Assembly (NCBI RefSeq): GCF_964204865.1
Contig: NC_135253.1
Location: 21,674,001 to 21,738,000 of the forward strand
Direction of reading: 5' to 3'
DNA from: Styela clava
Taxonomy: Eukaryota; Chordata; Ascidiacea; Stolidobranchia; Styelidae
DNA: 64,000 bases
Shown: positions 10,707 through 60,224 of the stretch, in pieces
Layout: each line of letters starts with the position of its first letter
Position numbering within the stretch: position 1 is the stretch's first letter
Notes under the pieces: model-generated
Seen by the model: only the letters and a program-made list of their open reading frames with translations
The model's database searches: none
What the model was told of the DNA's origin: nothing
Program-made: the position numbers and the translations under genes

Positions 10707-11210
10707 TTTTATACCTTGTATTTACAGAAAAAGTAAAATGTACTTACCGTAATATAAATAGATAAAAAATTATCACAATTTTATCAATTTAAATGGGGAA
10801 CAGTACGTCATACATATATACGTCAGATGATACGTCATCAAGTGCTTCTACGTCGTCAACGTTTGAAATGATAAACATAATTTATACCTTGTTTTAACAG
10901 ATTATATCTACAATGCACTTTATATAAATAGATTAAAAATTATATTTTTGTCAAATTAAATGGGAAACAGTACGTCATAAATAACTACGTCAGATGATAC
11001 GTCATCAACTGCTTCTACGTTATAAACGTTTAAAATGATATTCATATTTTATACCTTGTTTTCACAGGATAACTACCATGCACTTAATATAAATAAATCG
11101 TAACTTATCATAATTTCGCCAATTCAAATGGGGAACAGTACGTCATACATAACTACGTCAGATGATACGTCAACGACTGCTTCTACGTCATCAACTTTTG
11201 AAATGATGCG
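10707..11210 (+). repeat. Triplicated promoter/start-codon unit (~168 bp x3)
   Basis: Three tandem copies, start codons at 10793, 10960 and 11128 (spacing 167 and 168 bp). Each copy has an 'ataccttgt..tacag'-like tract, a TATAAATA box about 37-40 bp before the ATG (10753, 10923, 11088), then 'atggggaacagtacgtca' and repeated 'tacgtca' motifs. Copy 1 stays open for 29 codons and then meets a stop. Copy 2 is stopped at codon 7. Only copy 3 continues into the full exon of the downstream gene. Regulated alternative starts or simple decay of extra copies both fit. Confidence 0.85.
11088..11095 (+). promoter_or_regulatory. TATA box of the 11128 gene
   Basis: TATAAATA lies 40 bp before the start codon, which leaves a 5' leader of only about 10 nt if transcription starts ~30 bp downstream. 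The same box is at 10753 and 10923 in the two upstream copies of the repeated unit. It is the only core-promoter signal I can point to for this gene. Confidence 0.5.
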
Positions 11211-14100: not shown

Positions 14101-14336
14101 GGGGCTCCCGAAGTATGCGAACCAAGATGGCGGACATCGGAATGTAATATGTGTACTAGGTTAGGGTTAGGCCATAATTTTAGGTATAAATACTACGGGA
14201 GGCTCTTGGCTAGTCTTCGAACTGATAATAGGACTAAAATAAGGAAAATTGGAAAAAAATTATCGCCTAACCCTAACCTGTTACCCGTGTTATGTTCCGA
14301 TGTCCGCCATCTTGGTTCGCATACTTCGGGAGCACC
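14101..14336. mobile_element. MITE family A, full length (236 bp)
   Basis: Begins 'ggggctcccgaagtatgcg', ends 'cgcatacttcgggagcacc'. Terminal inverted repeats of ~40 bp contain 'aaccaagatggcggacatcg'. Flanks are A-rich ('aaaaaaac' / 'caaaaaac'), consistent with an 8-bp duplication. The two ~80-codon ORFs through it are shadows of the repeat. Confidence 0.92.
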
Positions 14337-19624: not shown

Positions 19625-21404
19625 CTCTAGAGTCTAGTCCTAGTGTTTAAAAATTCAGTTCACTCAGAGACAAATATGCAAGAATATTAATTTCCCATCA
19701 AAATAGCTTTCACACGTCCCGATTCACATTATAACACGAAATAATTCTCTTGTCGGACCTTGTTTTCACGATCAACGTGTTTCACTTCCTTTCATGATTG
19801 CTTTACATTCGAGGCGCATTTTTGATTCATATGTCCCTAATGTGGCCCATATATAATATACACGATTTAAGTATCCCCATAAATGGCCTGGATTGTTTAA
19901 TACATAACAGTATAGTCGGGCGATACAATTTAAATCAAAGATCTAATGGTCTTAGAAATGTAAAATATTCCCATTCAACAAAAAGGTTTATTAGTGTAAG
20001 CAGGGTTTTCTCAGCCTAGAATTTTTTGCAGCAACAGAGGAGGGTTTTTATATTTACATATATTAGCTAAGCAGCAGATTGTTGCTGCCAAAAAGACTGC
20101 GATTTAAAAGATCTAAAAATAGAATGATTCCTTTGTAAGATTAGTAGCTATTTTTATCTAATGAACGGCGCAGAGAATAATTTTACGTTTAGCATTTGGA
20201 AACGCTGTTAAATTTATTTTATTAATGTCAAATAGTTCAAATGAATTTTTTTATGCGCCAAAAATATACTATGATAATACATATAATGTAATGTTATTGT
20301 TTTTTTCGCTTCTATTCGTCAAGTTACGTATATTTTTTTTATCCATACTTTTCAAATTTGTGAATTGTAAAAAACGGTAATGGCTAAAATGCGCAATGAA
20401 AAATTGCATTGCAAATTGATGGATAGAATTCCATGACCATTTTATTGCCTCTATCGATATTGTTAGGCCCGGACATGGAGTCGGGCCTTTCCTTCTTGTT
20501 ATAGTTTAGGAGCCGTGGTTAAAGCTGTATTTATAAAGTCGAAAAATTTTAATAATGAACTTTCAGGATCAGGAGGGAAATTTCACTTTTTCCCCCAGGC
20601 ATGGAATTATTAAAAAATGGCAATTTCATTTGCCATCAATTTGTCCCAAAGTGAGCACCACAGTGGGTAGTCGGCATGGATTTGTTAAAAAAACTGGTAA
20701 AACATACTCATCTCTCACTCAACAATCCTCGTTTTACATTATTCCACACAATTTTATAAAATAATTCAAGTTTTTATTTCAACAGTTGTAAATTTATAAT
20801 ACGGTTGACACCAAGCAGGTTTTTAAAGAGACAACTGCTGATTTTGGTAAGTCAATTTGAAGTCTTCTTTAAGTTTAGGTTCCTAATTTATATTTCAATA
20901 TCCCGGGGGAGAGAAAACCCGACAAAGCGGCTCAATCACATAACTAACTACACCTTTTGCCTGGTCTTCAGTCAAGACCAGGCATTACTCGTTTTTTGAA
21001 ATAAATAAATGCGTGGGTTTAACGAAGCCATGACCAACTAAAACTTCAGTAATGTTTACTCACATAATCATCGAATTCGGACCTTCATATCTTTTGCACT
21101 TGCCGCAGTGCGCTCATCATAGGATATTGTATGTAAATCTGGATCTAGATAGTCTGTAAATTTATTCACGAAGTACTCAATGATACCAAATAGCAATGAG
21201 AAGGCAAACTGAAATGCCAAGAATTCCGTAACATATACAGAGCATGATGCAAGGGTGACGTTTTAGGCGTTATCAAATGCTGATGGACTCGAGATTTAGA
21301 GCAGGTTTAGTATTTCTTCGGTTTTCTATTTTCAACCGTTTTCAGAAATTAAATGCCTATCTGGTGTTATTTAATTGTTTCGAATTTTTCGTAAAAAGCC
21401 TAAG
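19625..21404. other. Intergenic, no gene recognised
   Basis: Includes a 7-bp-stem hairpin 'aggcccg...cgggcct' near 20466-20489, a SINE fragment at 20895-20945, and a perfect 11-bp hairpin at 20958-20984. The 69-codon ORF from 20555 contains an internal repeat ('ggcatgga.tt.ttaaaaaa') but no domain I recognise. Confidence 0.4.
20958..20984. other. Perfect 11-bp hairpin, 5-nt loop
   Basis: 'tgcctggtctt' - 'cagtc' - 'aagaccaggca'. Stem pairing is complete. It could be a small RNA structure or part of a repeat; no gene adjoins it. Confidence 0.6.
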
Positions 21405-21600
21405 CTCCGCCAAAAACACCCCCGACCACACCCCGCCAACGCTCAGAATGAGAAAATTATTAATTATCCAGTTAGGGTTAGGAATGCAGATTGCGCTTGG
21501 AGATCAAATTTTCAAATCATTCCTAACCCTAAGCCCTACTGGATACTTGCTAATTTGTTTTTTTTTTAAATGTATTTTTCTCAAATCTCACATTTTTGAA
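21405..21600. repeat. Repeat family E (copy 1)
   Basis: Contains 'gccaaaaacacccccgacc', 'aattatccagttagggttag', 'ggaatgcagattgcgcttgg' and 'aatcattcctaaccctaa'. Reverse-orientation copies are at 41540-41765 and 49840-50060. The 164-codon ORF at 21277-21771 is fortuitous. Confidence 0.7.
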
Positions 21601-21806
21601 TTAGCGGCGTTGGCTTCGTACAAAGGATCCATTGCTTCTAATGTCTATTTAACTAATCAAATTAAATTGTCTAATCTATTTTTGATTACTTTTTCCAATA
21701 CACGGGATTGCACTACGCTGTCTGGAAGATTTATATCAATTTCAATATTCAATTTAGCCTCAGCAAGCTAGAAAATTTTTCAGGAATTTGGTAGAACTCT
21801 TTAACA

Positions 21807-22125
21807 CAGCGGTTCTCAACCGGGGGCCCTCGGCTCCCTAAGGGGGCCGCAGAGGAGTTGGAGGGGGGCCACAAGGATGGGCTGGAATCTGAATTTACTT
21901 TTCACTTTAAAATAAATCTCACAGTTTTTCCTAGTTTGCTGCTCAACAAGATTATTTCGCAGGGTGTTTTCGCTCTCTTTTGTGCAAATTGTTTTAACAT
22001 AATGGGATTTGGAATCCATCAATGAAAATAACCCTATTAATACCTCTGCAATATTAAAGTGGGGGCCATGAGTGCTAAAAGCCTCCGAAAGGGGGCCACG
22101 AGTCATAAAAGGTTGAGAACCACTG
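21807..22125. mobile_element. hAT MITE, 'cagcggttctcaacc' ends
   Basis: 319 bp. Left end 'cagcggttctcaaccgg', right end 'ggttgagaaccactg'. Perfect 8-bp duplication 'ctttaaca' (21799-21806 and 22126-22133). Interior G-runs 'agggggccgc' and 'gggggccacgag' sit near both ends. Confidence 0.94.
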
Positions 22126-22169
22126 CTTTAACAGCTATTTTTGTAAAATTCACAATATTTTTTATACAG

Positions 22170-22276
22170 ACTTTTTATGCAAGTTTGAGAAAAACAAGGT
22201 CACAGATTTTCACCTGAAACTGGAAAGAGCACAGATAGAAGAGTTGGGAATGACTACTACAAAGACACTTATAGAT
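22170..22276 (+). pseudogene. Open type 2 module (coiled coil), 35 codons
   Basis: Acceptor 'tttttatacag', donor 'gtaaga'. After two bases it is open for 35 codons and includes DFHLKLERAQIEELGMTTT. The heptad-like Leu/Ile spacing suggests a coiled coil. Paralogous bodies are at 22439, 25444 and 26355 (shared 'aaggtc.cag' and 'gaagagttg'). Confidence 0.5.
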
Positions 22277-22438
22277 GTAAGACCTTTGTATAGCATTGTA
22301 GAGTATTTATTATATTAATTCAAATAAATCGCAGTCGTACTTTGCTTTTTCGAAATAAAAAAAAGTTGTGATTCAAGGCTTCAGATAATCTAAATTGCTG
22401 ATTTTTATACAATTTTGTAAATACATTTTTTATACAAG

Positions 22439-22510
22439 ATTTCATAAACAACAAGGTGATGAGCCTCAAACTAAAAGAAGAAATAGCACTAATAGAAGAG
22501 TTGACTTTTT
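22439..22510 (+). pseudogene. Type 2 module cut by a repeat
   Basis: Acceptor 'tttttatacaag'. The body is open as NNKVMSLKLKEEIALIEELT, and then sequence from the 63.1-kb repeat begins with no donor. It is a truncated paralogue of the 22170 module. Confidence 0.5.
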
Positions 22511-22830
22511 TGTGTGCTTATCGTTACTTATCGATCTTTAGATCTGTAAATATGTTGATAGGTTAGATGCACGCGATACCTCACGAAGGCGAGGTTGAAT
22601 CTGCTCCAAATTTTCCAAATTTTCCTCCAAAATGTGTATTCATCATATCTCGGACCAGAAGCCTATTGATTTTGAATAAATTATGTCGTATAAATAGCGA
22701 GTTATTAAATAATTAGTGATGGGACACGCGGTGTCACTATAGAGTCATGAATCGAAACCGCAGTTTGGATCGATAAGTCTTCGGTCTCCGACCGATATTC
22801 TCGTTTCATTTCTGATGAGTGAGTACGTAC
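22510..22830. repeat. Dispersed repeat shared with 63.14-63.45 kb
   Basis: 'gttagatgcacgcgatacc', 'tctcggaccagaagc', 'attatgtcgtata', 'gtgtcactatagagt' and 'gatcgataagtcttcgg' occur in the same order at 63140-63450 with about 85-90% identity by eye. Unclassified. Confidence 0.75.
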
Positions 22831-23014
22831 TTGTACGCTTTTAACTTTATTTTAAGTTATGTCCGCCTCCCAGGTATCTCTGCATTTTGTTTGTCTGTTT
22901 GCTTTATGTGTTGTTTATGTCAGAACACCGAAATAAAATGATTGATTTATTGTGAGAGATATTATAGCAATCGAAAAATGTCCATTTTTGTAAAATTTGC
23001 CATTATTTTTATAG

Positions 23015-23105
23015 GGTCTTGCTCGAAGCGAGGTATCTTGTGCCCAACCGAAAGAGCGACTCATGATTGAAGAGTATTGAGAGACCATTGACGCACCACT
23101 CAAAG
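23015..23105 (+). pseudogene. Module with one stop
   Basis: Acceptor 'ttatttttatag', donor 'gtacat'. Reads GLARSEVSCAQPKERLMIEE and then a stop. The paralogue at 26199-26261 shares 'gcttgctc.aagcgaggtatc' but has early stops. Confidence 0.45.
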
Positions 23106-23593
23106 GTACATATAAAGCATTCATTGCAATGGATTGAAATAAATGTAAGTAACAATTTTCCATAAAATTTAGTTAGTCAGTTCTTTTCACCCTTGATTGT
23201 TGATCGTAGTTATTTTTATACGGCGTTTATTCGACCATTTCGCTCCGTACAAATGGCCATTGATATCTGATTGATACACATAGATCTAGTATTGAAATTA
23301 AAAGACAATATTCAGTCCGTTTTAGTTTTACTTACCCAATTTGCTTCGTTTTTTATTCTCCATTGTCTTCTAAAATTAAAACTACATGGTGTAATGCGAG
23401 CTTCAAATATTGATACCACTTATTCCATTATTTAAAAGTACAGAAGGCAACGCACTGCCTCGTAAATTCTTGGTCCTGCTTATATTCAATCTTGCTTTTG
23501 CAAGTTAGAAAACTTATTTTTTAGGAATTTAATTTAATAGTTTATTAATCATTTTTTGTAATATTTGCCCATAATTTTATACATTGGTCACAG

Positions 23594-23659
23594 TCTCTCA
23601 ATTAAAAGTAGAAAATATACTGAAAGAAGAGTTGGAAACAACTGCAAACACCAAAAAAT
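23594..23659 (+). pseudogene. Open coiled-coil module, 21 codons
   Basis: Acceptor 'ggtcacag', donor 'gtaagt'. Open as SQLKVENILKEELETTANTK. It is one of the best-preserved bodies of the array. Confidence 0.5.
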
Positions 23660-23846
23660 GTAAGTAAAATATGTAAAGCATTGTAAGATCGATCACGGAT
23701 CTCCTGTGTTGGAACTCTTCGTATTTCTTATATTAATTTAAATTAATCTCAGTCGTACAGGAGGTATCGCCCTGTCTCGCAAATTCTTGGTCCTGCTATA
23801 TTCAATCTTGCTTCTTCAAGCTAGAAAAGTTATTATTCAAGAATTT

Positions 23847-23923
23847 GGAGCTCCGGAAGTATGTGCACCAAGATGGCGCACAACCTGAACATAGTATGTA
23901 TATCAGGTTAGGGTTGGAGCGCC
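23847..23923. mobile_element. MITE family C, deletion derivative
   Basis: The left arm 'ggagctccggaagtatgtg' and centre are present; most of the right arm is missing before 'ggagcgcc'. Flanks 'aagaattt' and 'aagaattc' are a 7/8 duplication. Sits inside the exon-module array. Confidence 0.8.
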
Positions 23924-24419
23924 AAGAATTCACATAATCGAAATTGTCATTTTTATAAAATTTGGTAGGCTGTTTACTTCATCCAGGGTGTAATTAAAAT
24001 AGGCTGTAACGAATCTAAAAGATTCCTGATTTTCAAAACTTTGTAGCTCTGTACATTTTAGTACTTTTTCACTCCGAGCCTTGATATATTTTGAATACGA
24101 GATTTTTTTTGTAATTAAGTCAGCAAAAAATATGTAAATTAATGATGATATTGAATTTGAAGGCTTATTGTTTTTTTTTAGGTTGGTTTGTGCAAAACAC
24201 AAAGACTGTAATGAAGCTAAAAGATTCATGTTTTTCTTTCAAAACCTTGAAGCCTCTTGCGTAACAGTGTTTTCTTATTTAGAGCCTTGTGCGGCACGGA
24301 TACAATGTTTTTTCGTGACTCGAACTCGGGATTTTCATTGTAATAAAAATAACCAGAAAACAAATATGTAAATTAATGATGATATTTATATTTAATGACT
24401 TATTAGTTTTTTTTTTCAG

Positions 24420-24473
24420 GTTGGTATGCACAGAGCGACGCCGGAAAAATAACGAATAGGGGAGAATAAATAA
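24420..24473 (+). pseudogene. Type 1 module, WYAQSDAGKITNRGE
   Basis: Acceptor 'ttttttttcag', donor 'gtaagt'. Open for 15 codons, then TAA. Same body as 26041, 27109 and 27797. Confidence 0.5.
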
Positions 24474-24489
24474 GTAAGTAAAATTGTAG

Positions 24490-24720
24490 AATACAATGAA
24501 AATGAGCGTTGAATTATTCTACATTGTTTCATAACAAACCATTGCAATTGCATCGACACAATATATTGTTTTGGCCCTCACAGATGTATTAAATGAAGTA
24601 AAAATACTTAACAATTAGTGATTGAAAAAAAAAAACTGGTTGAGATATATTGAGAACTGACTTCATAACAAAATTGAAATTGTAAAGAGACTTTATGGAT
24701 ACTCTGCATAGTTTTCATAC
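24490..24720 (-). repeat. Repeat family J (reverse, partial)
   Basis: Contains 'ttttggccctcacagatgta', 'gaagtaaaaatactt', 'gagatatattgagaactg' and 'attgtaaagagactttatgg'. Family J is a ~190-bp repeat ending in 'gggtgtccataaagtc'. Other copies: 27200, 44371, 50865, 51248, 56735 and 62450. Confidence 0.75.
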
Positions 24721-24779
24721 ATGAAGTAAAAGAATGTAACTTTAATAATAAAATTTAATTTCCTATATTATTTTTTCAG

Positions 24780-24848
24780 GTTTATTTTCTCAAAGCAACG
24801 TCAAAGAAACAAGAGATCTATACTCAAATATATGGCCACATCCTTTTG
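24780..24848 (+). pseudogene. Type 1 module, LFSQSNVKETRDL
   Basis: Acceptor 'attattttttcag'; open through LFSQSNVKETRDLYSNIWPH and beyond. No clear donor; sequence continues to 'tgatgacgtcatag'. Paralogue at 27485 ('caaggcaacgtcaaagaa'). Confidence 0.45.
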
Positions 24849-25443
24849 ATGACGTCATAGAAAAATAAAAGTAATAGCCCTCTGGAGAAAAATTCCATCT
24901 TTAACCTCTGAAAATTTCAAAGCAATTGGTCCAGTAATCAAAGAGAAAGGCGGTTTCTTCAAAACGTGTCAAAGAACAAGAACACCAAAACGATCGTTAT
25001 GTCCACTACGTGTCCGATAACACATAGGGAACATGAAACCGACCACTATAAGGTACTGCATTCAAGTATTTCCAAACCTATATGTCGCGACCAAAAACTG
25101 GGTTGCCGAAAAAATCATCTTCATCGCTTTTTTTTTCAAGAAAAACTAAAAGTTGCCGATTTTATTTTCTAGTAGATTGTATTGGGGATCCTATATTCAG
25201 TTTTGAAGTGTTGCTCAATAGTAACTGCATATATATGGTAAATGTCACAGCATAGAAACTTGGCTGCATCTATCTTGCTTGAGTGAACTCACGCCACATC
25301 AGGCGGGACAGATTGAATTACCTAACGGGTCGATTTTGATCTGCAGGCCGTAGTTTGCTCATATCAAATATAGAACATCTGCATTGAATTTGAATAAATG
25401 TAGTTATCAATTTTCTGTCAAATTTGCTGTTATTTTTACACAG

Positions 25444-25521
25444 GACTGTTCGAACTAAGGTCGCAGAATTATTGCTAAACGTTGAAAGATTGATGGAAGA
25501 GTTGGAAAGAATTACTAACAT
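25444..25521 (+). pseudogene. Open coiled-coil module, 25 codons
   Basis: Acceptor 'tatttttacacag', donor 'gtaaga'. Open as TKVAELLLNVERLMEELERI and flanking residues, with clear heptad spacing. The frameshifted paralogue at 26355-26422 keeps the same splice sites. Confidence 0.55.
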
Positions 25522-26040
25522 GTAAGAGAGTTTTTTTTATAAATATATATATTTGCGATATTTTATTATTATGAAAGTTGGCTCAAAGCAAACAAAGCTC
25601 ATTTCAGATCAATATAAGATGGTGGAAATGAGTGCCGGGGTCAGAAAACTTTTCAAGAAAATTTTCCCCAAAGCAAGGTAACACGCACTCACTCTGAATT
25701 AAAGGAAACGCTTCTCTGAGCAAATTTTCATGCAAAAATGTAAATGTTTAGACATCCTGAATCTCTAGCATTTGCTGTTAACGCGCTAAGCTACAAATTC
25801 AAGTCTTAAAAATTCACCTAAAGAGGAGTATTGATAAGAGAATTGCAGCTGACCACTGATACACTAAAACTCACAAGCGGAACCCGAGGTACGTGATGCA
25901 TAAAAGTCAATACAAGTTTGCCCAAAGCGTGATATTTCGACTAAGGGTGAAGATTTGCAAGCAATTACACATTAGAAGTCAGAAAAAATATGTAAATTAT
26001 TGATGATATTTAATAAAAATCTTTATAATTTGTTTTTCAG

Positions 26041-26105
26041 GTTGATCTGCTCAAAGTGACGCCGGAGAAATAACAGATAGAGATATAAAACAACTTTAAG
26101 AAACT
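26041..26105 (+). pseudogene. Type 1 module with two stops
   Basis: Acceptor 'tgtttttcag', donor 'gtaagt'. Reads (stop)SAQSDAGEITDRDIKQL(stop). Confidence 0.45.
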
Positions 26106-26198
26106 GTAAGTTATCAATGACATAGATGGTGGAAATGATACTAATAAAAGAGCTGTAGTAAGTATTATAACATTTTAAATTTGCCACTATTTTTAAAG

Positions 26199-26422
26199 GA
26201 GCTTGCTCAAAGCGAGGTATCATGATAGAAGAGTATTAAGAGTCCATCGACACACTCAAAGGTAGATATAGAACAATCATACAGAAGATCTGTATTAAAT
26301 TTCAATAAATGTAGTTATCAGTTTTCTGTGAAATTTGTTATTATTTTTATGCAGGGTTGTTTAATGTAAGGTCGCAGACTTTTTACTGAAAAATTGGAAA
26401 GAGCGGAAACGACGACTAACAT
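26199..26422 (+). pseudogene. Two adjacent decayed modules
   Basis: 26199-26261 (acceptor 'tttttaaag', donor 'gtagat') is a decayed copy of the 23015 body. 26355-26422 (acceptor 'ttttatgcag', donor 'gtgaga') is a decayed copy of the 25444 body. Their spacing, with intron 'aaatttcaataaatgtagtta', repeats that before 25444, so pairs were duplicated as a block. Confidence 0.45.
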
Positions 26423-27108
26423 GTGAGATGGTTTTTTGAAATCTAAATATTTGCGATAATTTTTTTTCATAAAAGTTGGCTCAAAGCAAGACGTTCAACC
26501 GAATCTCAGAAATGCAACTAAAAGGGAGTATTGATAGAAGAGTTGCTTGCAACCACTGAAACTTACGAGCGAATAATGTTACGCTAAGAGGTACGTGCTG
26601 CATAAAAGACAATACAAGTTTACTTAAAACGTGATATTCATTGTGGTCTGAGCATAATGAAGCTGTCTATACCGGCGTCGAAGTTTAAATATCACGGTTG
26701 CACCCGAGATGTAATAATTCAAGTTGGTTATAACGAATCTAAGAGATTCTTGTTTTTTCGAAACTTTAAAGCTTCTCGCGTAACATTATTTTACTATTTA
26801 GCCTTGATAATTTTTGTGACTCGCACTAGAGATTTTCATTGTAATAAAGTAAAGTAAGCAAAAAATATGTAAATTAATGATGATATTTAAATTCAAAGAC
26901 TCATTAATTTATTTTCAGGCTGAAACAAATCTAAAATGATTCTGTTTTTTTTTTCTCAAAACCTCGAAACTCTTTGCGTAACAGTGTTTTCTTATTCCAA
27001 TCTTTGCTTGGCATGGATTCAACAATAGTTTTTCGTGACTATAACTCGGGATTTTCATTGTATTAAAGCCAAGTTAGTAAAATTTAAAGACTTGGTAATT
27101 TTTTTCAG

Positions 27109-27175
27109 GTTGTTTCGCACAAATCGATGCCGGAGAAATAACAGATAGAGGAATTTCAAATACCTCTAAGAAACC
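27109..27175 (+). pseudogene. Open type 1 module, CFAQIDAGEITDRGIS
   Basis: Acceptor 'aatttttttcag', donor 'gtgagt'. Open for 21 codons: CFAQIDAGEITDRGISNTSK. Best example of the type 1 consensus. Confidence 0.5.
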
Positions 27176-27199
27176 GTGAGTTAATATATCAGAGATATA

Positions 27200-27410
27200 T
27201 AGGGTGTCTTTAGAGTCCTTTTACAATTTTTTAAAATTGCAAAAGATAATTTATTGATACCATATATTGTTTCGGCCCTCACAGTTGTATTGAATGAAGT
27301 AAAAATACTTGAACAATTACTGATTAAAAAACAACAAACCTGGTTAAGATATATTGAGAACTGACTTCATAACAAAATTAAAATTGTGAAAGAACTTTAT
27401 GTACACCCGC
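27200..27410 (-). repeat. Repeat family J copy
   Basis: 'tatagggtgtctttagagtc' at one end; 'cggccctcacagttgta', 'gaagtaaaaatacttg' and 'attgtgaaagaactttatg' follow as in the other copies. Confidence 0.75.
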
Positions 27411-27484
27411 ATAGTTCCATTACATGATAGTAAAATAATATAACTTCAATATTCAAATTTAATTTTTTTTTAAATATTCTCCAG

Positions 27485-27864
27485 GTTAATTTCCTCAAGG
27501 CAACGTCAAAGAAATTCCAGATAGTGAAATTGAAAGCGATCATCAAGGTACTATAATCATTGTTTTCCAACCTATGAGTCGCGACCCAAAACTGGATCGC
27601 CTGGAGATCTTTTTTTTTTTTCATTAATTGATATCTATACTGTCGTCGCAGTTTAATTGTCAAACACCACGCTGTTTATTTTACCCGGAGTGTGATAATC
27701 GAACTCAGGATTTTCATTGTAATAAAACCAAATCAATAAAAAATATGTAAATTGATGTTGATATTCAAATTTAAAGACTTATTAACTTTTTTTCAGGTTG
27801 GTTTGAACAAAGTGACGACGGAGAACGACAGATGAGAATGAATTTCAAACAACTCTGATAAACT
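27485..27864 (+). pseudogene. Two further type 1 modules
   Basis: 27485-27547 (acceptor 'attctccag', donor 'gtacta') reads FPQGNVKEIPDSEIESDHQ after an initial stop. 27797-27864 (acceptor 'ctttttttcag', donor 'gtgagt') reads WFEQSDDGERQMRMNFKQL then stop. Confidence 0.45.
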
Positions 27865-28789
27865 GTGAGTTATTATAACAGATATATATAGCTATAAAAC
27901 ATGATAGTAACATAATGTAACTTTGATATTAAAATTTATTTTTTTATAATATTTTCCAGATTATTTTACTCATTGCTACCATTGAGTTAAACAACCAAGT
28001 GTTTTTTCAAGTGGGTGGCGACCCAAAACTGGGTTGGTGGAGAAGTAATCCTCAACGTTTTGTGAAGTAATAATCAATCAAATATAAATAAAGCAATAAT
28101 AATGACGTTGTAAATATCATCTTACATATAATATACTCTTCTGAATATATACTCTTCTGAAATTGTTACAAAATCTTCTTGTTCTTTATTTTAAAGCAAG
28201 CCTGTGTCTGTGGAATTCTCAACTTTTTCACTTTGAACAAGACCCTGAACACCAGTGTTCAGCGAATATTGACAAACTGGTTAGCGAAAAACAGAACCAA
28301 CATTCACAGTTAAATATCTACGTGTACTGTACTTTATCTTCGTTTTTTTTATTGTTCTTATTGTCGAGAAAGTTTGGTGCAAGGGTTTTGTTTGTTTTTT
28401 CATTAACTTTTAGTCAGTGTAGCAAAACTAGAAAATAATTACCATGTTAGGTGGCCCGCGCAATCATTAGTAAACTAAACTTGGCCCGTCGGCCAAAAAG
28501 GTTGGCCGACCCTGGTGTACACTAACATGTGAGAAACTACAATATTTTTGAAACTTTTTCGAAACAACTCTAGAATAAATCCAATAGAAATACAGTAATA
28601 TTTACGTTTTTTTTTTATCTTAATCCGATCCTGTAAAAAAATATATTTTATTAAGTAAAATTAAATTTGGTTCTCTTATTTTTTCAGGCAAGTTTATTCT
28701 AAGCGCAACTACAAATGGGAGAATTCGCATGTAACCAGTGAGAAGCTGAAAGCAATGTATTTGATATTCTTCCGTAAGAAACTCTAGTA

Positions 28790-29081
28790 TAGTGATTGAC
28801 CGAGGGCCAAAATAAGAAGCGGAAGAATATTCGCGGGCCGGTAGAGGGCGCCCGCAAGGGACCAATGCCGGAACCGGTACGTATAATTAAGATACCGATA
28901 TAATTGAATTATTAGAAATATACACACGTGCTTAAACTGTAATAATGACGTAACAATTGGCGGTATTTAGACCGCAAAAGGTAAACATAAAATGCTAAAA
29001 CATTTCACTCAAGTTCGGCGGGCCATATTGAATTGTCACACGGGCCATAATTGTCCGCGGGCCGCGGTTTGGGAACCACTG
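28790..29081. mobile_element. hAT MITE in module array
   Basis: 292 bp. Left 'tagtgattgaccgaggg', right 'gcggtttgggaaccactg'. Flanks 'ctctagta' and 'ctctatta' (7/8). Same family as 35653-35944 (shared 'atattcgcgggc', 'gacgtaacaattgg' and 'ggcgggccatatt'). Confidence 0.88.
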
Positions 29082-29161
29082 CTCTATTAGATAGAATTTT
29101 GTGCTCTTCATTTCAACACAAGTCTGTAGCAGCATTATTGATTAATCAAATTAACTTTAGG

Positions 29162-29340
29162 CGGTGGTGGGATTCAAATTTTTTGTCAGCCGGTTCCTTC
29201 ACACAAGTTATATTTTCAGACGGTTCTGTTACAAACAGAACATTGACAGTAACCAGTAAAGCTAACCGGCTCGCTGATCTAATAAAATTCCGTGAGACGG
29301 TTCTATATAACCGGTGCAAACCGGTTGAATCCCACCACTG
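29162..29340. mobile_element. MITE family G inserted at a splice acceptor
   Basis: 179 bp. Left 'cggtggtgggattcaaat', right 'ggttgaatcccaccactg'. Perfect 8-bp duplication 'actttagg' (29154-29161, 29341-29348). The duplicated target contains the 'ttag' acceptor of the module that reads KFPQSIAEVIADRNK at 29348-29400, so insertion duplicated a splice site. Confidence 0.93.
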
Positions 29341-29457
29341 ACTTTAGGTAAGTTTCCTCAAAGCATAGCCGAAGTAATTGCAGATAGAAACAAATTGCAA
29401 ATATGCACGGACGTGGGGTTTGGACCCGAAATCCGTAATCTGGGATAGCAACTTAGT

Positions 29458-29693
29458 GGGGCTCCCGAAGTATGCGAACCAAGATGGCGGACATCGGAAT
29501 GTAATATGTGTACTAGGTTAGGGTTAGGCCATAATTTTAGGTATAAATACTACGGGAGGCTCTTGGCTAGTCTTCGAACTGATAATAGGACTAAAATAGG
29601 GAAAATTGGAAAAAAATTATCGCCTAACCCTAACCTGTTACCCATGTTACGTTCCGATGTCCGCCATCTTGGTTCGCATACTTCAGGAGCACC
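29458..29693. mobile_element. MITE family A, full length (236 bp)
   Basis: Same sequence as the 14101 and 41842 copies with few differences. Flanks 'aacttagt' and 'gacttagt' (7/8). Confidence 0.93.
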
Positions 29694-29788
29694 GACTTAG
29701 TTAATTAAGTCTAACGCTCTAACATCAAGTCATCGTGCCCATGAAACTCATTAAAAATAATTAAAGGTAAATATCTCTTATTTTTCAG

Positions 29789-29834
29789 ACAAATTTGCAC
29801 AAAGAAGGACAGATAGAGGACTTGCTGAAAAACC
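29789..29834 (+). pseudogene. Open short type 1 module, KFAQRRTDRGLAEK
   Basis: Acceptor 'ttatttttcag', donor 'gtgagc'; open for 14 codons. A five-codon shorter relative of the type 1 consensus. Confidence 0.45.
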
Positions 29835-29995
29835 GTGAGCTATGTATAATAGAGGTGTAAAATTTCATTACATATTCCTTTCAGATCGGATTCAAAAAAG
29901 TTAATGAATAAGAGATGGATTTTGAAAATAATTTCGCGACAATCCAGTAAAAATGTAACAAGCGATCTATTTGTATTTTTTTTATATCCAAAAAC

Positions 29996-30470
29996 AGAGT
30001 GGTCCGAACCCAGGCCCACGAACCACATGTGGCCCGCGCTTCATTATCTGTGGCCCGCGTCACATTCGGAGAGTAATCAAAAAATCGCATTTTGTGTTGT
30101 TTTGTCATAAAATTAATCAGAAAATTTTTTTTGACATATCGTCATCACTATTGTCACTGAATTGAATAGTGTTATGGATAGCTGGGGAAACTAGCGAAGT
30201 TGAATGATGTGCTTGGCAGTCTAAATTGTTATCTGGCTTTCTAACTTTTTGGTCGGATTATATGCAAACAATATAGGCATCATAGAAAACTAAAAATCGA
30301 ATGCGGATTCTATTAGCCTAGAATGGCTATGCCTGATAACTATGTGTTTGCACAATGAGGGTGTTTGTTTTGTATTGCACTGTTTACCTATTCTTGGCAC
30401 TATTGTGGCCCGCAAACAATGCAAAAATAATTTTGTGGCCCGCGGAGCCGACAACCTTGGACCACCCTGT
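29996..30470. mobile_element. Probable hAT MITE, 'gtggcccgcg' rich
   Basis: Left 'agagtggtccgaacccagg', right 'ccttggaccaccctgt'. Several 'gtggcccgcg' blocks lie near both ends. Target duplication not convincing. Confidence 0.6.
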
Positions 30471-31226
30471 TCTAAAGCAAGCATGTATTAGTGAATTTAT
30501 TTACCTGACAGGTAAATTTTAAATCTGAATATATTTTTCAGGTTAATCGGGGACATTACAGGAGATATCCTCTCTCCCCAAATTATTTCACCTTGAGTAT
30601 ATACAGTTATACAGTATAGATAGGCAAACAAAATGATTTTGAAGTCTAATAATAGTGGCATATTTAATATTTATTTGATTATATTTAAAAAGTATACATG
30701 TATTATCATTGTATTAAAAGATAAATAAACTATTGTACAGGTGTTACTCAGGCCTTGGGAATGTTTCATTAAACTCCCGTTTTATCAAAAAGTTTAAAAA
30801 CCGCGGGTCCAGAGACTTGCTCGAAGGTATTTAAGAGAGATCACCAAATGAACGAGGCCAATCCGTTACCAAAAAGAAACCTCCATAATTTCGGGTCTAA
30901 TATATTGTTGTACTACAAGTACTTCCAGTGGGCGTAGCATAACGAATTGCATATGTTATTACTAACTCCCACCTGGTTATGCCATCCAAACATTACGTCA
31001 TTACGACGTCACAATCGCGTCATATAGCTTGTTAAAGTATAGCTATGATTGCCCAAAAAATGATGTAATTTTTTTGTGACGTAGTCAGGTGGGGGTTAGT
31101 TATGACATATGTAAAAATTGTTGAGCCATTTCAACTAGAAGTGCATGTGGTACTAAACTATACCAGACCCTACCATTTCAGACTGCCTACGTCAAACATG
31201 CAGTCGGTTTGGGTTGTCAGTTTTAT

Positions 31227-31274: not shown

Positions 31275-34200
31275 ATGAGGCCATTAGTTATTTGTCTTTT
31301 ATCTTGCCTTCTTTTTGGCCACATAATTCGCGCTCAAGATGAAAATGGCGGCGACAGCAAGGACGCCACAAGTGACAGTGGCGTTGAAGAATCTGAGAAT
31401 GGAGAAGGCGCCACGGAAAACGAAGAAAATGCCACAGAAAATGCCACTCAATATGAAGACGATGACGACTGGTACTATTATGATTACGATGTTGAAAACA
31501 GAGCAGGAAGATACAAAAATAGAAATAAAACTAAAAACAATAAAAACAGCGAATCTAATAATGACACCGAAAGTGGCGATGGTGCCACCGAAAGTGGCGC
31601 CACCGAAAGCAGTGGAGATGTCACCGAAGGTGAAGGCGAGGCCTCCGAAAGTAGTGGAGATGTCACCGAAAGTAGTGGAGGTGACGCGGAAATGAGTGTA
31701 GATGTCACCGAAAGTAGTGGAGATGTAACCGAAAGTAGTGGAGATGTCACCGAAAGCAGTGGAGATGTCACCGAAGGTGATGGGGATGTCACCGAAAGTG
31801 ATGGAGACGCCACAGAGGGTGACTATGGTGACGCTGAAAGTTCGACTCAGGGCACTGAAAATGGAGACGATAATGGCGAATCTGCGAGTGAAGACGATAA
31901 CGCAGAAAGTGACAGCGAAGACGATGCTGGAAGTGATGCGGGAGATAGTGCCGAAGATAGCAGCGAAGAAGCGGCCGGCGACGGTCAAAACGACGAATCT
32001 GATGCTTCAGACAGCGCTGGGAGTGATAATTCGGGCGGAGATGCCCAAAGTGCCAACGATGCCCAAAATCAATACGACGGGGCAGAAAACTATGGCGCAT
32101 CGGACAGAGGCGGAGATGATTATAGATATGAAGATGGTAATGGATATACAGATGGCAGCGGTGAAGGGGAAAGAGGAGGTGAAAGTAATTTGGACGATAC
32201 CGCAAGAAGTGGCGATGCTTCTTATGATAGCATGCAGTTTGAAGGCGGAGAGTATTTCGACGACCTTTCATATGATGCTGACGGGCAATGGTATGGCAGC
32301 GGTGAAGAGCAAAGAGGAAGTGAAAGTAATTTGGACGATACCGCAAGAAGTGGCGATGCTCCTCACGGTAGCAAGCACTTCAGAGGCAAAGAATATTTCG
32401 ACGATCCTCTAGCTAATGTCGACGGGCAATGGTATTACGCTAGAGACGGTGATTATTACCAGAGCGATTATTATGATGAATTAGATGTGAATGAGCTATA
32501 TGAATACTTTGGAGCCGGCGAACACGGCTATGCACGTATAGATTCTCCGCGTGCGCCTAAAAGCTTTCACGGGCCCGGGAGCGAGAAACAAGAAAGGCGT
32601 GAAAAGCACGACAAAGATGACAAAAAAGCTGACTTGCCAGTTGGCCCCCGTGCTGTCCCCCCACGAAGTCGAAACCAGCGCCCCAAGTCTGTAAGACCCA
32701 AGCCAGATGGTGACTCTTACGACTTTGCTTATGACTATATTGTAGCGGCTGCAAAGGCAGGATTAATTGGGAGCCAATTAGAGGCAACAGTTAAAAAAAA
32801 TTTGAAAGCCGATAACTACTACCCTGTTTTTGTGAAAAATAGTGGCCAAGAAGGAAAAAGATATGATGGCAGTAGATATTATGGTGGCGATGGAAAATAT
32901 GGCGATGGCGGATATGCCGGGGAGAGATCGGGTGGTGGCGGGGCGTACAATGATTACGGAGCACGGAATTACTATGGTGACAACGGGGGTTACAACAATA
33001 ATGGCGGCGGCGAGAAAGGTGCTGGCAATAACTATGGCGGCTATGCCAATAATTATGGCCGTAATGCCAATAATTATGGCGGCAATGCAAATAACTATGG
33101 CGGCAATGCAAATAACTATGGCGGTGATGCTAATAACTATGGCGGTGATGCCAATAACTATGGCGGTGATGCCAATAACTATGGCGGTGATGCCAATAAC
33201 TATGGCGGTGATGCCAATACCCATGGCGGCGATGCAAATGGTGAGGGTCAAAATGCAGCAAATGACGGCAATGGTGGCGGTCGAAGTGGAGAGTACGGTG
33301 CCTACGACTGGGCAGACGCAGAAAGTGACGCTGCAGACGCAGAAAGTGACGCATCAGACGGAGAAGGTGACGCAGCAGACGCAGAAAGTGACGAATCAGA
33401 CGCAGAAGGTGACGCTGCAGAAGCAGAAGGTGACGCTACAGAAGCAGAAGATGACGCAGCCGAAGCAGGAGATGACGCTGAAGACGCACAAAGTGACGCG
33501 GCAGACGCAGAAGGTGACGCAGCCGACGCAGAAGATGCAGAAAATGACGTAGCAGATGATGCAAGTAACGATGGTAATGCCGAAAGCAGTGACGTGGCTG
33601 ATGACGACAGCAGTGACGCAGAATACGAGGGCAGAGAAGGACAGTCAGATTCTGGTGACGACGCCACGCAATCAGACGACATTCTCGCAGCTTTAGAAGG
33701 TAAAGTACTATTCTAGCAAACTCATTTTTATTAACACTTCACCCCGTGCAGAGAAATTTAAATTTACTACAGTACACTGTAGTACTACAGTACCACAGTA
33801 CACAGTACAGTACATGTATATGACGTCGTAATATACTTCGATTCTCAAATTGTTTAGCTTCCAGTCCTCAACAAAGCATGGAAATTTGTTTACAAAAGAG
33901 TTAAAATAAACGCAAAGTATTGAGTTAACTTGCGCTAATGATTTGGTTTCTGCGAGACAAACTACTTATCCTTCTTCTATGTTTTTGTGTCGGCGGATCC
34001 GTATGCATATAGTGCAAGGATGCTGTAGCAAAAGTAAAGATAACTATCCTAAGTGATTCAATAGTCTTGCTGCACACTAACACAAATGCATTTCTGTAAT
34101 GTTTTGTCTGACTGGCCACACGAAATGTTACACAAATACATTCATTTGTGTTAGTGTGCAGCAAGACTCTTGAATCAAAAAACATTGAGCTAATGTCGTA

Positions 34201-37200
34201 ATTATTAACTCAACTTGTCCTAATCCAAACAAAGAGAATCAAGAATTCTTGATGAGGTATAACATGATATCACTCAGATTGGTAAAAATTTCAATTCTAT
34301 TTCTCAGGTATACAAAGTACGCTGGAACAACACAGCACAAAATTAGAAGCCCTGAGCAGCAGAATCGAAGGTAAATTTATGTAAATTGTCGCCCTGAACA
34401 TATTTTTAGACATGCAAAGTATATTGATATTTTTGGCGCCACTATGTCATGAAAGTGCAATTACTATTTGGCGTTTGGCTCAATCATCTGATACACCCCG
34501 AAAAAGGCGCTCCAGAAATGTGTGTGCCAATATGGAGATACTAATTTTGTCCGCCTACTTTACATCAAGTTGTGTAAAGAGACCTATAAGCAGGGGGTAT
34601 ATTCACTTGGCGGTGCTCCAAAAGAATGTGCACCAAGATGACACACAACCTGAAGCCTAACCTGGTACGCATACCATGTTCAGGTTGTGCGCCATCTTTG
34701 TACACATACTTCGGGAGCACCGACTTGGCTAACAATTGATAACGATAACGATAACCCGAACCTGATAACCTAACGTCTTGGTGCACATACTTCGGGAGCA
34801 TTAAAGCCTCTACTTATGCTCCTTCTCTACTTAAGGTTTTATTAAGGCGTATAATTTAGGCCTATTTTTCTATCATGTTCTAAAATTATAATATCAGTTG
34901 GCAACCAAATTTGTTACACAATGGTTGAGGTATTTTGCACAACTTTTTCTGGTTTGAACTGGTGTGAACCGGTTTAAGCTGGTATTTTTTACAGGCTCGA
35001 AACGGTATTTGACAAACAATAAAATCGCACTCGAAATCTTTAATCTATGGTGTGATAATTTATCATTATAAAATGACTGAATTTGCTTTTTTGTGTTCAG
35101 CTCTCAATGACGAATTCACCAGTCAGTATTTCAGTTTGAAGGTTGTGCTGGACATCGTGGAAGAAGAAATTGGACGTAAGTGAATTTACCAGTGTTATGG
35201 AGTCAAAAATGATTATATCCGGATCCGAATCACTTAAGAAAAACAAAAATTATGAATTAGCTATCCGCTATGGGCTTTAAACTACTCAAAACCGCCTACA
35301 GCCGCCCACGGCTTTTTAGTATAGGTTGACTTATGCATTTGAGTCCCGAGTAAGTAGTCATGTAACCTGGAATATGTTTAACGAATGATCGATTCTAACA
35401 CCTGGCACGTTAGGAGTTATCGTATTCTAAGAAGTGCCGGAATGCTAACCCAATATAATTTGACTTACCAAAATTATTGCTCCCTTGGTGAGTGTTGTGA
35501 GCAATGTTTAAATCAATGTTGTAAAGAAGTCGTAAAACTTCGAGTCATGTCGAGTCATCCCGATCCTGAATTAATCCCGAACTCGTAAAAATCAACGAGC
35601 TTAGTTTCACTGCTGGTTAGTTGACGACGAGTTCGAGTCATTTCATTTAGATCAGTGGCACCCAAAGTTGATTGGCCGGGGTCCAAAATTAACAGCGCAG
35701 GGATATTCGCGGGCGGGTGAAGCGAGCGCCTTCTAGGGGCCATTACCAGTATCGTCATGTGAAAATAAAAATGCCGGTGTAATTGAATTGTTACGACTTT
35801 ACACGTGCTACTGCGACGATGACGTAACAATTGGTATCTAGAACGTAACAAAAGAAAAAAGTAAAGTGTTAAACTATTTCACTATTAGTTCGGCGGGCCA
35901 TATTAAATCGTTACGGAGCCGTAATTGGCCCGCGGGAAACACTGATTTAAATAATCCAAGTCATTTCGAGTCTATGATGAATAGTGACTAGTGTTCAACA
36001 CGATTCGGAGCAATGACTCAAGCTTGCCTAAAACCCGCGCGATCTTAACTTAAACGTACTTTTGTGTCAGCAATGAAATAAATCCCTTTTTACTTTCAGA
36101 TTTTGCGTATCCAACTGGCTGTAATTCCGTGCAATCGAATAATTTGCAAGACTTCGATGGGCGCGGAGGAATTGCCACAGTCTATGACGAACTTTTGATG
36201 GGGACCTATCAAGTGTTTTGTGACATCACAAGTGATGGAGGCGGATGGACCGTGAGCATTGAAGTTTTTATAAACGGGGTTTTCCGGTTTGGACTGGTCT
36301 AAACTGGTTATAACCGAGTACCGACTGGTTTGGCTTGGGCGAAAAACGATTTAATTTTCTTCTCTTAAAATATTTTACATACTCTCATGATGAAATATAG
36401 TTACTGATTACACCAGTGGTTCTCAAACTTTTTATTTTTAATTAGCTTCTGGCCCCCTCAAAAAATTGCCTACTCCCCTTATGTGGGGCGCACGCCAGCG
36501 TTTGAGAGCCACTGAATTAAACAAGATGAATATTACTGTTAAAACTTTTATTTCAGCAGGCTTTTCAATTAATGATAAAAACTTTCCAGGTATTCCAAAG
36601 ACGTCTAGATGGCTCGGTCAATTTCACAAAATCTTGGGATGAATATGTTTCCGGATTCGGGGATTTGACGGGAGAGTTTTGGCTTGGTAAGAAGATTTAT
36701 TTTATTATTTTTTTCTGGGGATAGCAAAACTCTGATCATATATGACGACCAGAGGGGGTTCGCTTGCGGGTCGCTAGCTGTTGCCGTCCAACTTGGCAGG
36801 GAGCAATCGGAATTTTCACCATTGTGTAAATACACCTTCTACAAACAAAATAAACAACAACGCAAAAATGGCATCTCAGGGTTAGGGGAGGCGCAAAAAC
36901 TAATACCGGTTATCATGAAGCGACACCCAATCCAAAATTTCACCCCCCCCTCCCCCCTCTCATTGAAAATTCATGATTACGCCCCTTATGACGACTCGGA
37001 TCAAATTTTGATATTTTCTTGATGACTCGAATTAGAAAACTTGACTCGAAACATACGCGGGAGATGTAAAATTTGACTCGACCATCTTTGAGAAAACTCG
37101 GATTAACTCGACTCGGATCAGACATGACGACTCGATGTTAGCCGAGTCAATTTTTCAACTTTTCAAATAACTTATTTAGTATTTCCAAAAAAATTTGCTC

Positions 37201-39185
37201 AAAGCAAAGTCACGCACACTCAAGGTAATTGTTCTCTGGGTGATTTATATATTTGAAATGTAGGCGACCTCAAAAGTGTCATATGCTAATAAGAGTCTGA
37301 GTTTAGTTCGATGACGAGCACTGAACATGTTTTTATTGACCCGTGTCTCGATCAAAGTGCGGGGTTTAAACCTAAGATATTAGCCTATAACACCAGTGTC
37401 ACAAATCGGACCTCCTGAAGTATGCGCACCAAGATGGCGCACAACCTGAACTCAGGTAGTGTATTAGGTTAGGGTTCAGGTTGTGCGACATCTTGGTGCG
37501 CATACTTCAGGCGTACCCACAAATCTAACTATCGGTAGAGGTTGCGCGAGACCAACTCCCAATTCAAAGGTATTTATAAACAGTATGATCGTTCTTTTCT
37601 TGTCATTGTTGCAACTGTTTGTTTGAGGAAGTCTGATTTTGGTCGGACGAATCGTTACAAAAACACATTTTGTGTTAGTGTGCAGCAGGACTCTTGAATT
37701 GGATAGGACCAGCGGTGGGATTCAATTTATTTGTCAGCCGGTTCCATCACAAAAGTCATATTTTTCAGCCGGTTCTGTTACAAAAAGTCATTGAGAGTAA
37801 CCAGTAATGCTAACCGGTTCGCTGATCTCATATAATTACGTGAGACGGTTAAAAAAAACGGTGCAATACGGCTGAATCCCACCACTGGATAGGACATGTC
37901 ACGAAGCTGTGAATTCGGCTGCCCCATCAAGTTTCTGAACAAATCGTTTCAAAATAGCTTTATATTGCTCACAGGATTAGAAAAGCTTCATTTACTGACC
38001 GAAAACGGAGAATATGAGTTGATGGTCGAGATGTCAGATTGGAATGATACCGTTTCATATGCTTATTATGGGTAAGTCAACTCATCACTCCATGGGATGA
38101 CTCGGCGTAGGGCTAATACTCCTACCGGCGAATTCGACTCGAAATTGAAATAAATAAGCAGTGAAATTTGGGTAGGCTCGACTCATTTATATCAATACCA
38201 ACGACTAAAAATAGAGAAATATAGAATATGACCCGGTTTTGCTTGATTTAATTTTTGACCGAGTGAGACTTGATTTAATATTTTGTATCTACTGGTTCAA
38301 TTCGACTTGGAGAATGATTTGAAGCATGTCTCGGCATGAGAGTGATTATTGATAGATTCCGCTTATTTTAGGGTAGAAAAACATGGTCCTTTTTTAAAGA
38401 ATCTTCTTCGAATAAAATACAAGAACATAAATCGGAAACAAATTACTTGTTAACTATCACGATACCCGACATCGTTAACCTATTTACGATTAGTCGTTGT
38501 TACGAGTAAAACAAAAAGGATGATGCTCATTTAAACGACCATTATGCTTACTAGTTAATCCCTTGATCGTTGTGGATTAGTTCTCTGACGAGAGGCCGTG
38601 GTTTGCCACATGATTGAGCCGCTTTATCGACTCTGCTCTCTCGGGTCGAATATAAATCTCATTTTAAATTTAACTCAACTATGGACTACAGTTTCACTCT
38701 GGTTCAACCAGTATGAGTAAAATTCTATAAACTCGACGTCGAGTAATCCGGAGTCACAAAAATTTGATCCCTAAGTCAAATCAAGTCACTGCACTCTTGA
38801 GTCACAAGTCAAGTCGAGTCATAATTGGAAAGTCTAATTCCTTACTTTTTCTCGTTTTAGAATCTTCAATGTTGGATCAGAAGACGAACAATACGAGCTT
38901 CGAGTTGACGGCTACGATGGCGACGCTGGAGATTCATTGTCAACGCATAATGGAATGAAATTCACTACTTATGACGTAGACAATGATGCGAACGAAGACG
39001 ATAACTGCGCTTCCTTAGTGTTTGGTGGATTCTGGTTCAGCGATTGCCAGCAAGCAAATCCCAATGGTGTTTATATTTGGGGGGGAATACCCGAGCAAGC
39101 TGGTCAAGGAGTGACGTGGGATTCGTCTGCGGAGGATTCAACATCTCTGAAGAAGATAGAAATGAAATTTAGACAAAAAAATTAA
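31275..39185 (+). CDS. FReD gene 1: secreted, giant low-complexity N-terminus
   Basis: Seven exons: 31275-33699, 34308-34370, 35101-35175, 36100-36251, 36590-36686, 37975-38071, 38861-39185; all phases agree, 1077 aa. Residues 1-20 are a signal peptide ([20 protein letters not shown]). Exon 1 encodes Glu/Asp/Ser-rich sequence: VTESSGD heptads (~109-186), a 47-residue duplication (~294-387, shared [13 protein letters not shown]), a Pro/Lys/Arg-rich linker, NNYGGDA heptads (~584-655) and DAESDA-type hexads (~678-762). Exons 2-3 read as coiled coil ([30 protein letters not shown]). Residues ~859-1077 are a fibrinogen C-terminal domain: Cys862/Cys895, VFQRR, FWLG, NGMKF, Ca2+-site DVDND (1008-1012), Cys1019/Cys1032, terminal IEMKFR. 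By family this domain binds glycans or acetyl groups outside the cell. Architecture suggests an oligomeric matrix or innate recognition protein; inferred. Family differences: GGFWF and PNG replace the usual GGWWY and LNG. Confidence 0.88.
31600..31830 (+). repeat. 21-bp coding repeat, VTESSGD
   Basis: 'gtcaccgaaagtagtggagat' type units encode VTESSGD and variants ([14 protein letters not shown]). Variation is mainly in single bases, indicating slippage or unequal exchange within the exon. Confidence 0.85.
32158..32434 (+). repeat. 141-bp coding duplication
   Basis: Two copies, 32158 and 32299 onward, share 'gtgaaagtaatttggacgat' and 'accgcaagaagtggcgatgc'. They encode [13 protein letters not shown]...EYFDD...DGQWY. 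The copies diverge in the middle ([11 protein letters not shown] against [11 protein letters not shown]). Confidence 0.85.
33025..33240 (+). repeat. 21-bp coding repeat, NNYGGDA
   Basis: About ten units of 'aataactatggcggtgatgcc' type encode [14 protein letters not shown]. Several adjacent units are identical, so copy number may vary between alleles. Confidence 0.9.
33307..33560 (+). repeat. 18-bp coding repeat, DAEGDA
   Basis: Units 'gcagacgcagaaagtgac' and variants encode ADAESD/AEAEGD. Highly acidic and alanine-rich, likely extended or helical, potentially Ca2+-binding. Confidence 0.85.
33930..34190. repeat. Repeat family F in FReD1 intron 1
   Basis: Shares 'ggatccgtatgcatat', 'ggatgctgtagc' and 'tgtgttagtgtgcagcaaga' with 12870-13130. 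Two nearby inverted 'cacaaatgca'-type segments. Confidence 0.6.
34506..34800. mobile_element. Family C MITE nested in family B MITE
   Basis: Family B begins at 34506 ('ggcgctccagaaatgtgtg') and is interrupted after 'attcacttggc' by a family C element at 34612-34721 with flanks 'cacttggc' and 'gacttggc' (7/8). Family B-like sequence resumes ('gacttggctaac') but its tail is degenerate; 34772-34800 is a last family C-like terminus. Lies in FReD1 intron 2. Confidence 0.85.
35653..35944. mobile_element. hAT MITE in FReD1 intron 3
   Basis: Left 'cagtggcacccaaagttg', right 'gcgggaaacactg'. Flanks 'atttagat' and 'atttaaat' (7/8). Same family as 28790-29081. Confidence 0.88.
36414..36513. mobile_element. 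Short hAT MITE in FReD1 intron 4
   Basis: Left 'cagtggttctcaaactttt', right 'gtttgagagccactg'; ~100 bp. Flanks 'gattacac' and 'aattaaac' match at 6/8 only. Confidence 0.75.
36690..37400. other. FReD1 intron 5, 'gactcg'-rich segment
   Basis: Contains a C-rich tract (36941-36957) within a family H fragment in reverse. 37000-37140 has about ten 'gactcg' or 'actcgg' motifs in both orientations; similar stretches occur at 38090-38290 and 38640-38830. Probably degenerate DNA-transposon ends. No coding exon seen. Confidence 0.4.
37408..37517. mobile_element. MITE family C, perfect 8-bp duplication
   Basis: 110 bp. Left 'ggacctcctgaagtatgcg', right 'cgcatacttcaggcgtacc'. Perfect duplication 'cacaaatc' (37400-37407, 37518-37525). 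Reference copy for family C. Confidence 0.95.
37710..37887. mobile_element. MITE family G, perfect 8-bp duplication
   Basis: 178 bp. Left 'cagcggtgggattcaattt', right 'gctgaatcccaccactg'. Perfect duplication 'gataggac' (37702-37709, 37888-37895). FReD1 intron 5. Confidence 0.94.
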
Positions 39186-59894: not shown

Positions 59895-60224
59895 CATAAA
59901 AGCATTATGCGTGTTCTGCCAATAGTATTTAATAAATGATTACCAAAAGAAGGTGGCGAGGCCTCAACTTAAAGTGGAAAGAGGACTGATACATAAGTTG
60001 CACGCGAACACGCCAAGAGCTGTGTATGACTTATAGATAGCTGAAGCAATTTATGCCAATACGGGCCATGAAGGATAGAACTTTATATCGAAGGTCTCAC
60101 GGTAAAAACAATGCGTGATTTACCATTAGGCAAGGTGGGATGAACATTATACGAGCCATGTAGAATATGATTTTAAATTGATTCCGACACATCGGCAGGC
60201 TACTTTTGCAAGCATAGGTTCCTA

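Follow-up and report, generated by a model that had tools for sequence, protein, structure and literature searches.

Results

An array of exon-like units between two genes

The 64-kb window analyzed here comes from Styela clava (contig NC_135253.1, positions 21,674,001 to 21,738,000; GC 0.374, no N, introns included), and all coordinates count from its first letter. On its plus strand, in the intergenic space between two complete-looking genes, a C3orf70-like gene on the 5' side and a FReD gene on the 3' side, lies an array of short exon-like units (about 22.1-30.6 kb). These are recurring acceptor-body-donor units whose introns were duplicated with them, and they come in two body types, type A ("FAQSDAGEITDRG") and type B ("QLKVERxLIEEL").

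The array repeats were strong by two methods, a repeat-family search and blastn. The former recovered the type A acceptor and body as families of 60 nt and 61 nt (D1 and D4) and type B as D5, D7, D18, and D19. Profiles were built from six type A and eight type B copies and calibrated on 40 simulated order-3 Markov windows, in which the highest score reached 12.4 bits for A and 8.5 bits for B. Within the array they added two copies above these maxima, A9 (23.6 bits) and B9 (10.0 bits); in the reversed window, the type A profile had no match and the type B profile had two, each of 6.3 bits. The 16 array copies with profile support are therefore the 14 builders, which match by construction but whose repetition is shown independently by the repeat-family search, and the two newly found copies. 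About nine further stubs were recognized by eye (A0, A1, a trace near 27960, A8, A10, A11, two B fragments at 25.57-25.70 kb, and 26129). Those picked up by the first profiles scored under the best simulated score, and A0 and A1 were assigned from intron matches.

A preliminary description of this DNA had reported about 18 such modules with duplicated introns at 21740..30600, upstream of the FReD gene. Repeat families, blastn pairs, and profiles agree on the units, and the count is fair against 16 profile-supported copies and about nine stubs. The array is thus real, but type B is not confined to that interval. Both bodies begin with a FAQS-like stretch (TTTGCTCAAAGC-like), but this is not long enough to prove that types A and B share an origin. 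The units are as follows.

B1, 22170..22276 (+): type B, open in the shared frame (lead 2, trail 0), AG and GT present
B2, 22424..22517 (+): type B, truncated by a repeat beginning near 22518
B3, 23015..23105 (+): type B, no open frame
B4, 23564..23659 (+): type B, original acceptor judged by eye to be lost; an internal AG at 23593 gives an open frame (lead 2, trail 1)
A1, 23988..24190 (+): stub, intron and acceptor tandemly duplicated (about 240 bp), exon body cut at the join
A2, 24420..24473 (+): type A, no open frame
A3, 24781..24852 (+): type A, donor not recognizable by eye
B5, 25444..25521 (+): type B, open (lead 1, trail 2)
B5b and B5c, 25563..25703 (+): weak type B fragments, with 20 nt of B5c (25658-25677) open in all three frames
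B9, 25804..25880 (+): type B, 10.0 bits, no clear acceptor (by eye)
A4, 26041..26105 (+): type A, two stops
B6, 26199..26261 (+): type B, internal deletion, stop in the shared frame
B7, 26355..26422 (+): type B, no open frame
B8, 26476..26590 (+): type B, no open frame
A0, 26715..26918 (+): stub, block-duplicated partner of the A1 stub
A5, 27109..27175 (+): type A, open (lead 2, trail 2), both splice signals
A6, 27485..27547 (+): type A, open only outside the shared frame
A7, 27797..27864 (+): type A, frameshifted, no open frame; the next intron is the empty site of a repeat described below
A8, 28688..28737 (+): weak type A stub, 6.7 bits
A9, 29343..29406 (+): type A, 23.6 bits, 5' side occupied by a repeat (29165-29340)
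A10, 29789..29834 (+): shortened type A, 9.0 bits, open (lead 2, trail 2)

Growth by duplication of genomic segments

Local duplication was evident from blastn, which paired 23991-24809 with 26715-27514 (70.8%, E 3e-118), 25368-25591 with 26279-26489 (77%, E 1e-41), and 27075-27202 with 27762-27891 (80%, E 4e-23); 22993-23198 and 26177-26362 form a further duplicated pair. Copies are spaced by about 0.24, 0.9, 2.7, and 3.2 kb. The A1 stub is the product of a tandem duplication of about 240 bp (23988-24190 versus 24190-24428, 67%), in which an acceptor became fused to the following intron. The main block is present in two copies 2.7 kb apart, one consisting of stub A1, A2, a repeat resembling a miniature inverted-repeat transposable element (MITE), and A3, and the other of stub A0, A5, the same repeat, and A6. 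The MITE-like repeat occupies the same site in both.

24527-24713 (+): MITE-like repeat, after A2
27181-27423 (+): MITE-like repeat, after A5

Elsewhere in the window, this repeat is found at 44365-44562, 50874-51051, 56729-56944, and 62429-62740. Some copies have complementary ends (GGGTGTCC... and ...GGACACCC), and the repeat may be mariner-like. The A7 copy shows the empty site, where two matched stretches abut: 27075-27202 pairs with 27762-27891, and 27411-27504 with 27888-27979. As the repeat follows A2 and A5 while its site is empty at A7, duplication continued around its insertion. The matching introns and the shared repeat site also indicate that the duplication steps copied genomic DNA and not messages. 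Either of the two main-block copies may be the first.

Present coding status

The preliminary description had called the array decayed, and the units support this: copies are broken by stops and frameshifts, splice sites have been lost, repeats have inserted, and the bodies look neutral overall. In the main block (23991-24860 versus 26715-27560), bodies are 79.6% identical (39/49 and 43/54) and introns 80.1% (366/457). A codon-position test on 16 type B copies (11 in the array, 5 outside) and 9 type A copies gave mismatch rates at positions 1/2/3 of 0.229/0.201/0.236 (B) and 0.155/0.164/0.196 (A), or 0.247/0.189/0.250 and 0.152/0.163/0.202 with a stiffer gap cost. The overall third-position excess was not significant at the first gap setting (one-sided p 0.28 for B and 0.24 for A).

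Open frames were scored in the 15 array units with both splice borders, leaving out borderless units such as B2, A3, B5b, B9, and A9. Five of them keep the shared frame open (B1, B4, B5, A5, and A10), B4 only through a substitute acceptor; fragment B5c, open in every frame, was counted apart. The only phase-compatible joins among open units are B4-A5, B4-A10, and B4-B5c, never more than two units. A raw best chain of seven units was discarded; it mixed non-shared frames and included an empty entry (A11x) without a real donor. Pfam searches of 20005-31207, in six frames with X at stops, found nothing at E 0.1 (the best two matches had E 0.13), and the consensus A and B bodies gave nothing at E 0.5; the Pfam scan 5' of the array covered one plus frame.

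These results bear on the proposal, also made in the preliminary description, that the array is a reservoir of alternative mini-exons, a few of which would be spliced into an unrecognized transcript or the FReD gene. Five units with splice borders are indeed open in a shared frame, and a conserved intronic block, described below, lies upstream of type A acceptors. However, the phases admit at most two open units per message, and downstream of the array the FReD gene starts with a signal-peptide exon of its own. Nor did any RNA docking partner for the block stand out in 13664-39185, where the best duplex was -15.3 kcal/mol against a median of -13.8 and a best of -20.8 for 60 shuffled queries. 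Given the stops, frameshifts, lost splice sites, and incompatible phases, an exon reservoir is not plausible, and we regard a living one as very improbable.

Type B copies outside the array

The type B profile also matched beyond the array. The scores below are from the first profile; those of an iterated one, which contains the outside copies by construction, were set aside.

59928..60032 (+): type B copy, 25.7 bits
18827..18900 (-): type B copy, 15.4 bits
18355..18442 (-): type B copy, 15.1 bits
9813..9864 (+): type B copy, 10.8 bits (window-wide E 0.015)
37177..37217 (+): borderline type B fragment within a FReD gene intron, 8.0 bits, under the simulated best of 8.5

Four of these copies exceed every simulated score, two of them on the minus strand. 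Type A had no match above the simulated scores outside the array within the window. The preliminary description had named genome-wide dispersal of the units as an ordinary transposon as evidence against its proposal; within this one window, scattered copies were seen for type B, on both strands, but not for type A.

The units could accordingly be fragments of an ordinary dispersed transposable element family, nested and duplicated here, with splice-like borders that are coincidental. The type B copies at 59.9, 18.9, 18.4, 9.8, and, weakly, 37.2 kb resemble dispersed non-autonomous repeats in this respect, the overall divergence is neutral, and many other repeats nest in the region. Against this, type A is local in this window, its units repeatedly carry polypyrimidine-CAG acceptors and GTRAG donors at their borders, and a third-position excess, reported below, is seen in three of its copies. 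No transposase domain was found in six frames of the array, element ends not having been sought systematically; a non-autonomous element needs no enzyme of its own. On balance, we consider this explanation unlikely, though it deserves some weight.

A probable decayed pseudo-exon array, and what weighs against it

The region is probably an old, decayed pseudo-exon array that grew by local segmental duplication and most likely has no present coding role. A stretch of DNA with short exon-like units was copied in place, in segments of genomic DNA that took the introns along; the likely engine is unequal exchange between copies or replication slippage. The ancestral units may have been real coding exons of a small repeat-bearing protein (type B being coiled-coil-like) that was later lost, and type B would also have spread past the array within a dispersed repeat.

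Several observations weigh against this reading, at least in its simplest form. The MITE-like repeat is 89.5% identical (154/172) between the block copies, versus about 80% in its surroundings, which is unexpected from a simple insertion before duplication and may reflect gene conversion or other exchange. In one of the smaller duplications, the type B body has diverged less than the intron (55/63 versus 85/113), while the other goes in the opposite direction (52/68 in the body versus 121/143 in the intron). Neutral evolution of the bodies, another finding that the preliminary description had held would tell against its proposal, was observed at least in part, being neutral overall and mixed in the smaller duplications. 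Ten of the 15 scored donors read GTRAG, though inheritance from a single ancestor would give the same. Finally, 8 of the 12 variable sites in A2, A4, and A5 are at third positions (p 0.019, only indicative, as these copies were chosen for gap-free alignment), which suggests an earlier coding constraint.

Other signs of a coding past were mixed. Four type B copies have 37, 39, and 47 differences at positions 1, 2, and 3, with no clear excess. The A4 body is 79-83% identical to other copies, whereas its flanks, by a crude fixed-offset measure, are about as similar as unrelated DNA. This contrast is weak evidence, because the measure reads only 0.57 and 0.62 even for the known block duplicates A2 and A5. 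A coding past of the array units is thus suggestive but not proven.

A further point against simple neutral decay, which does not explain it, is a 25-nt intronic block.

24128..24152, 24362-24386, 25986-26010, 26863-26887, and 27741-27765 (+): five copies of the 25-nt intronic block

The block precedes five type A acceptors (A1, A2, A4, A0, and A7) at a distance of about 29-57 nt, and A5 lacks it. Three copies are perfect, one has one mismatch and one has two (3 mismatches in 125 cells), and the surroundings drifted while the block remained nearly unchanged. This is the best 25-column window of the aligned introns, and none of 5000 column shuffles was as good. All copies are in the array and on one strand, with none in 100 window shuffles, and no minus-strand partner was found with up to 3 mismatches. 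The motif may read as an octamer-like ATGTAAAT plus TTAATGA; apart from the block copies, ATGTAAAT has 8 further occurrences in the window, counting both strands. The block may represent a branch-site region or a factor site, or it may be a trace of gene conversion.

This conservation, confined to the array and one strand, also favors a reading of the array as a tandem cis-regulatory repeat that would serve the FReD gene, with selection on the block and the exons as bystanders. The absence of the block at A5 and the further occurrences of ATGTAAAT argue otherwise, and gene conversion could produce the same pattern; we hold this to be the least probable of the explanations weighed here. That the array is kept for its introns, with the block as a regulatory relic still in use, controlling splicing or serving as a tandem enhancer close to the FReD gene while the bodies decay, is also improbable, if marginally less so than a living reservoir. 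If the block is functional, it would be an intronic element that has outlived the exons it once served.

Relation to the FReD gene

The decayed array is not part of the FReD gene that adjoins it, here called gene A.

31275..39185 (+): FReD gene A, complete-looking, from the start of the signal-peptide exon to the stop
31275-33699, 34308-34370, 35101-35175, 36100-36251, 36590-36686, 37975-38071, and 38861-39185 (+): exons of FReD gene A, the start of the last (38861) set by eye
about 47129-47263, 48268-48369, and 49394-49492: domain exons of a second FReD gene, which ends at 50679

The domain of gene A matches PF00147 with an E of 2.7e-65, and its last exon is similar to PDB chains of FIBCD1, MFAP4, tenascin, and ficolin; a search of IMG/VR for relatives of this exon gave 6 pattern matches, none confirmed. 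The first exon (31275-33699) would encode about 800 residues, secreted, acidic, and repetitive, with short GD- and NNYG-type repeats, ahead of the FReD domain; this long N-terminal exon had no Pfam match.

The array had been described as lying at the FReD locus, possibly as a decayed stalk gene. It does adjoin the gene but is not inside it, the signal-peptide exon starting at 31275; nothing beyond proximity links the two, and the gene looks complete without the array. In a tblastn search of the window with the gene A stalk, the best match aside from self matches had an E of 0.63 and the best array match an E of 1.7. The type B consensus matched a gene A stalk exon only at E 7.7, and neither of the two stalk exons of this gene was recognizably related to the units (comparisons with gene A only). 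No remnant of FReD exons was found in the array (best match E 0.68). The 1-1 phase symmetry of the gene A exons is likewise not matched by the open units, whose lead/trail values are 2/0, 2/1, 1/2, 2/2, and 2/2; only B4 (2/1) is phase 1-1, through its substitute acceptor.

Other features of the window

Upstream of the array, the C3orf70-like gene matches PF15823 with an E of 6e-10, above the family cutoff (exons joined by eye).

about 11206-13663 (+): C3orf70-like (UPF0524) gene, start and splice borders by eye
20786-20846: lone exon-like stretch 5' of the array, with acceptor and donor and one open frame
52437-52736 (-): 99-residue open reading frame, a hydrophobic segment then a lysine-rich tail; Pfam matches weak, below cutoffs
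29458-29693: palindromic repeat of about 236 bp, arms of 81 nt, 90% complementary

Relatives of the palindromic repeat, 83-98% identical to the 29458 copy, are located at 4237-4461, 14101-14336, 41842-42094, 52121-52362, 54078-54309, and 55261-55496, and it is possibly a recently active foldback or MITE family. No Rfam family or tRNA gene was found across the window. A contaminant-contig check with one repeat of this genome gave no match in viral_contigs or genome_contigs.

Discussion

Tandem exon duplication with pseudo-exons is the closest in kind to the array, which likewise has adjacent acceptor-body-donor copies together with their introns, some of them broken. It differs in its many copies, its two body types, and the lack of a living host gene in the window. 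The mutually exclusive exon clusters of the Dscam1 type also line up short, similar exons, several of them preceded by a conserved intronic block. However, most units here are closed, their phases are mismatched, a docking partner was not found, and they are not open, phase-equivalent alternatives. A search of the openly licensed literature with a few terms found no such array.

The array is a readable fossil of exon multiplication, in which segmental steps left about 25 units decaying within 8 kb, and the MITE-like insertion and its empty site help to order the duplication steps. It also calls for caution, as splice-like units repeated beside an immune-type lectin gene do not necessarily amount to an exon repertoire.

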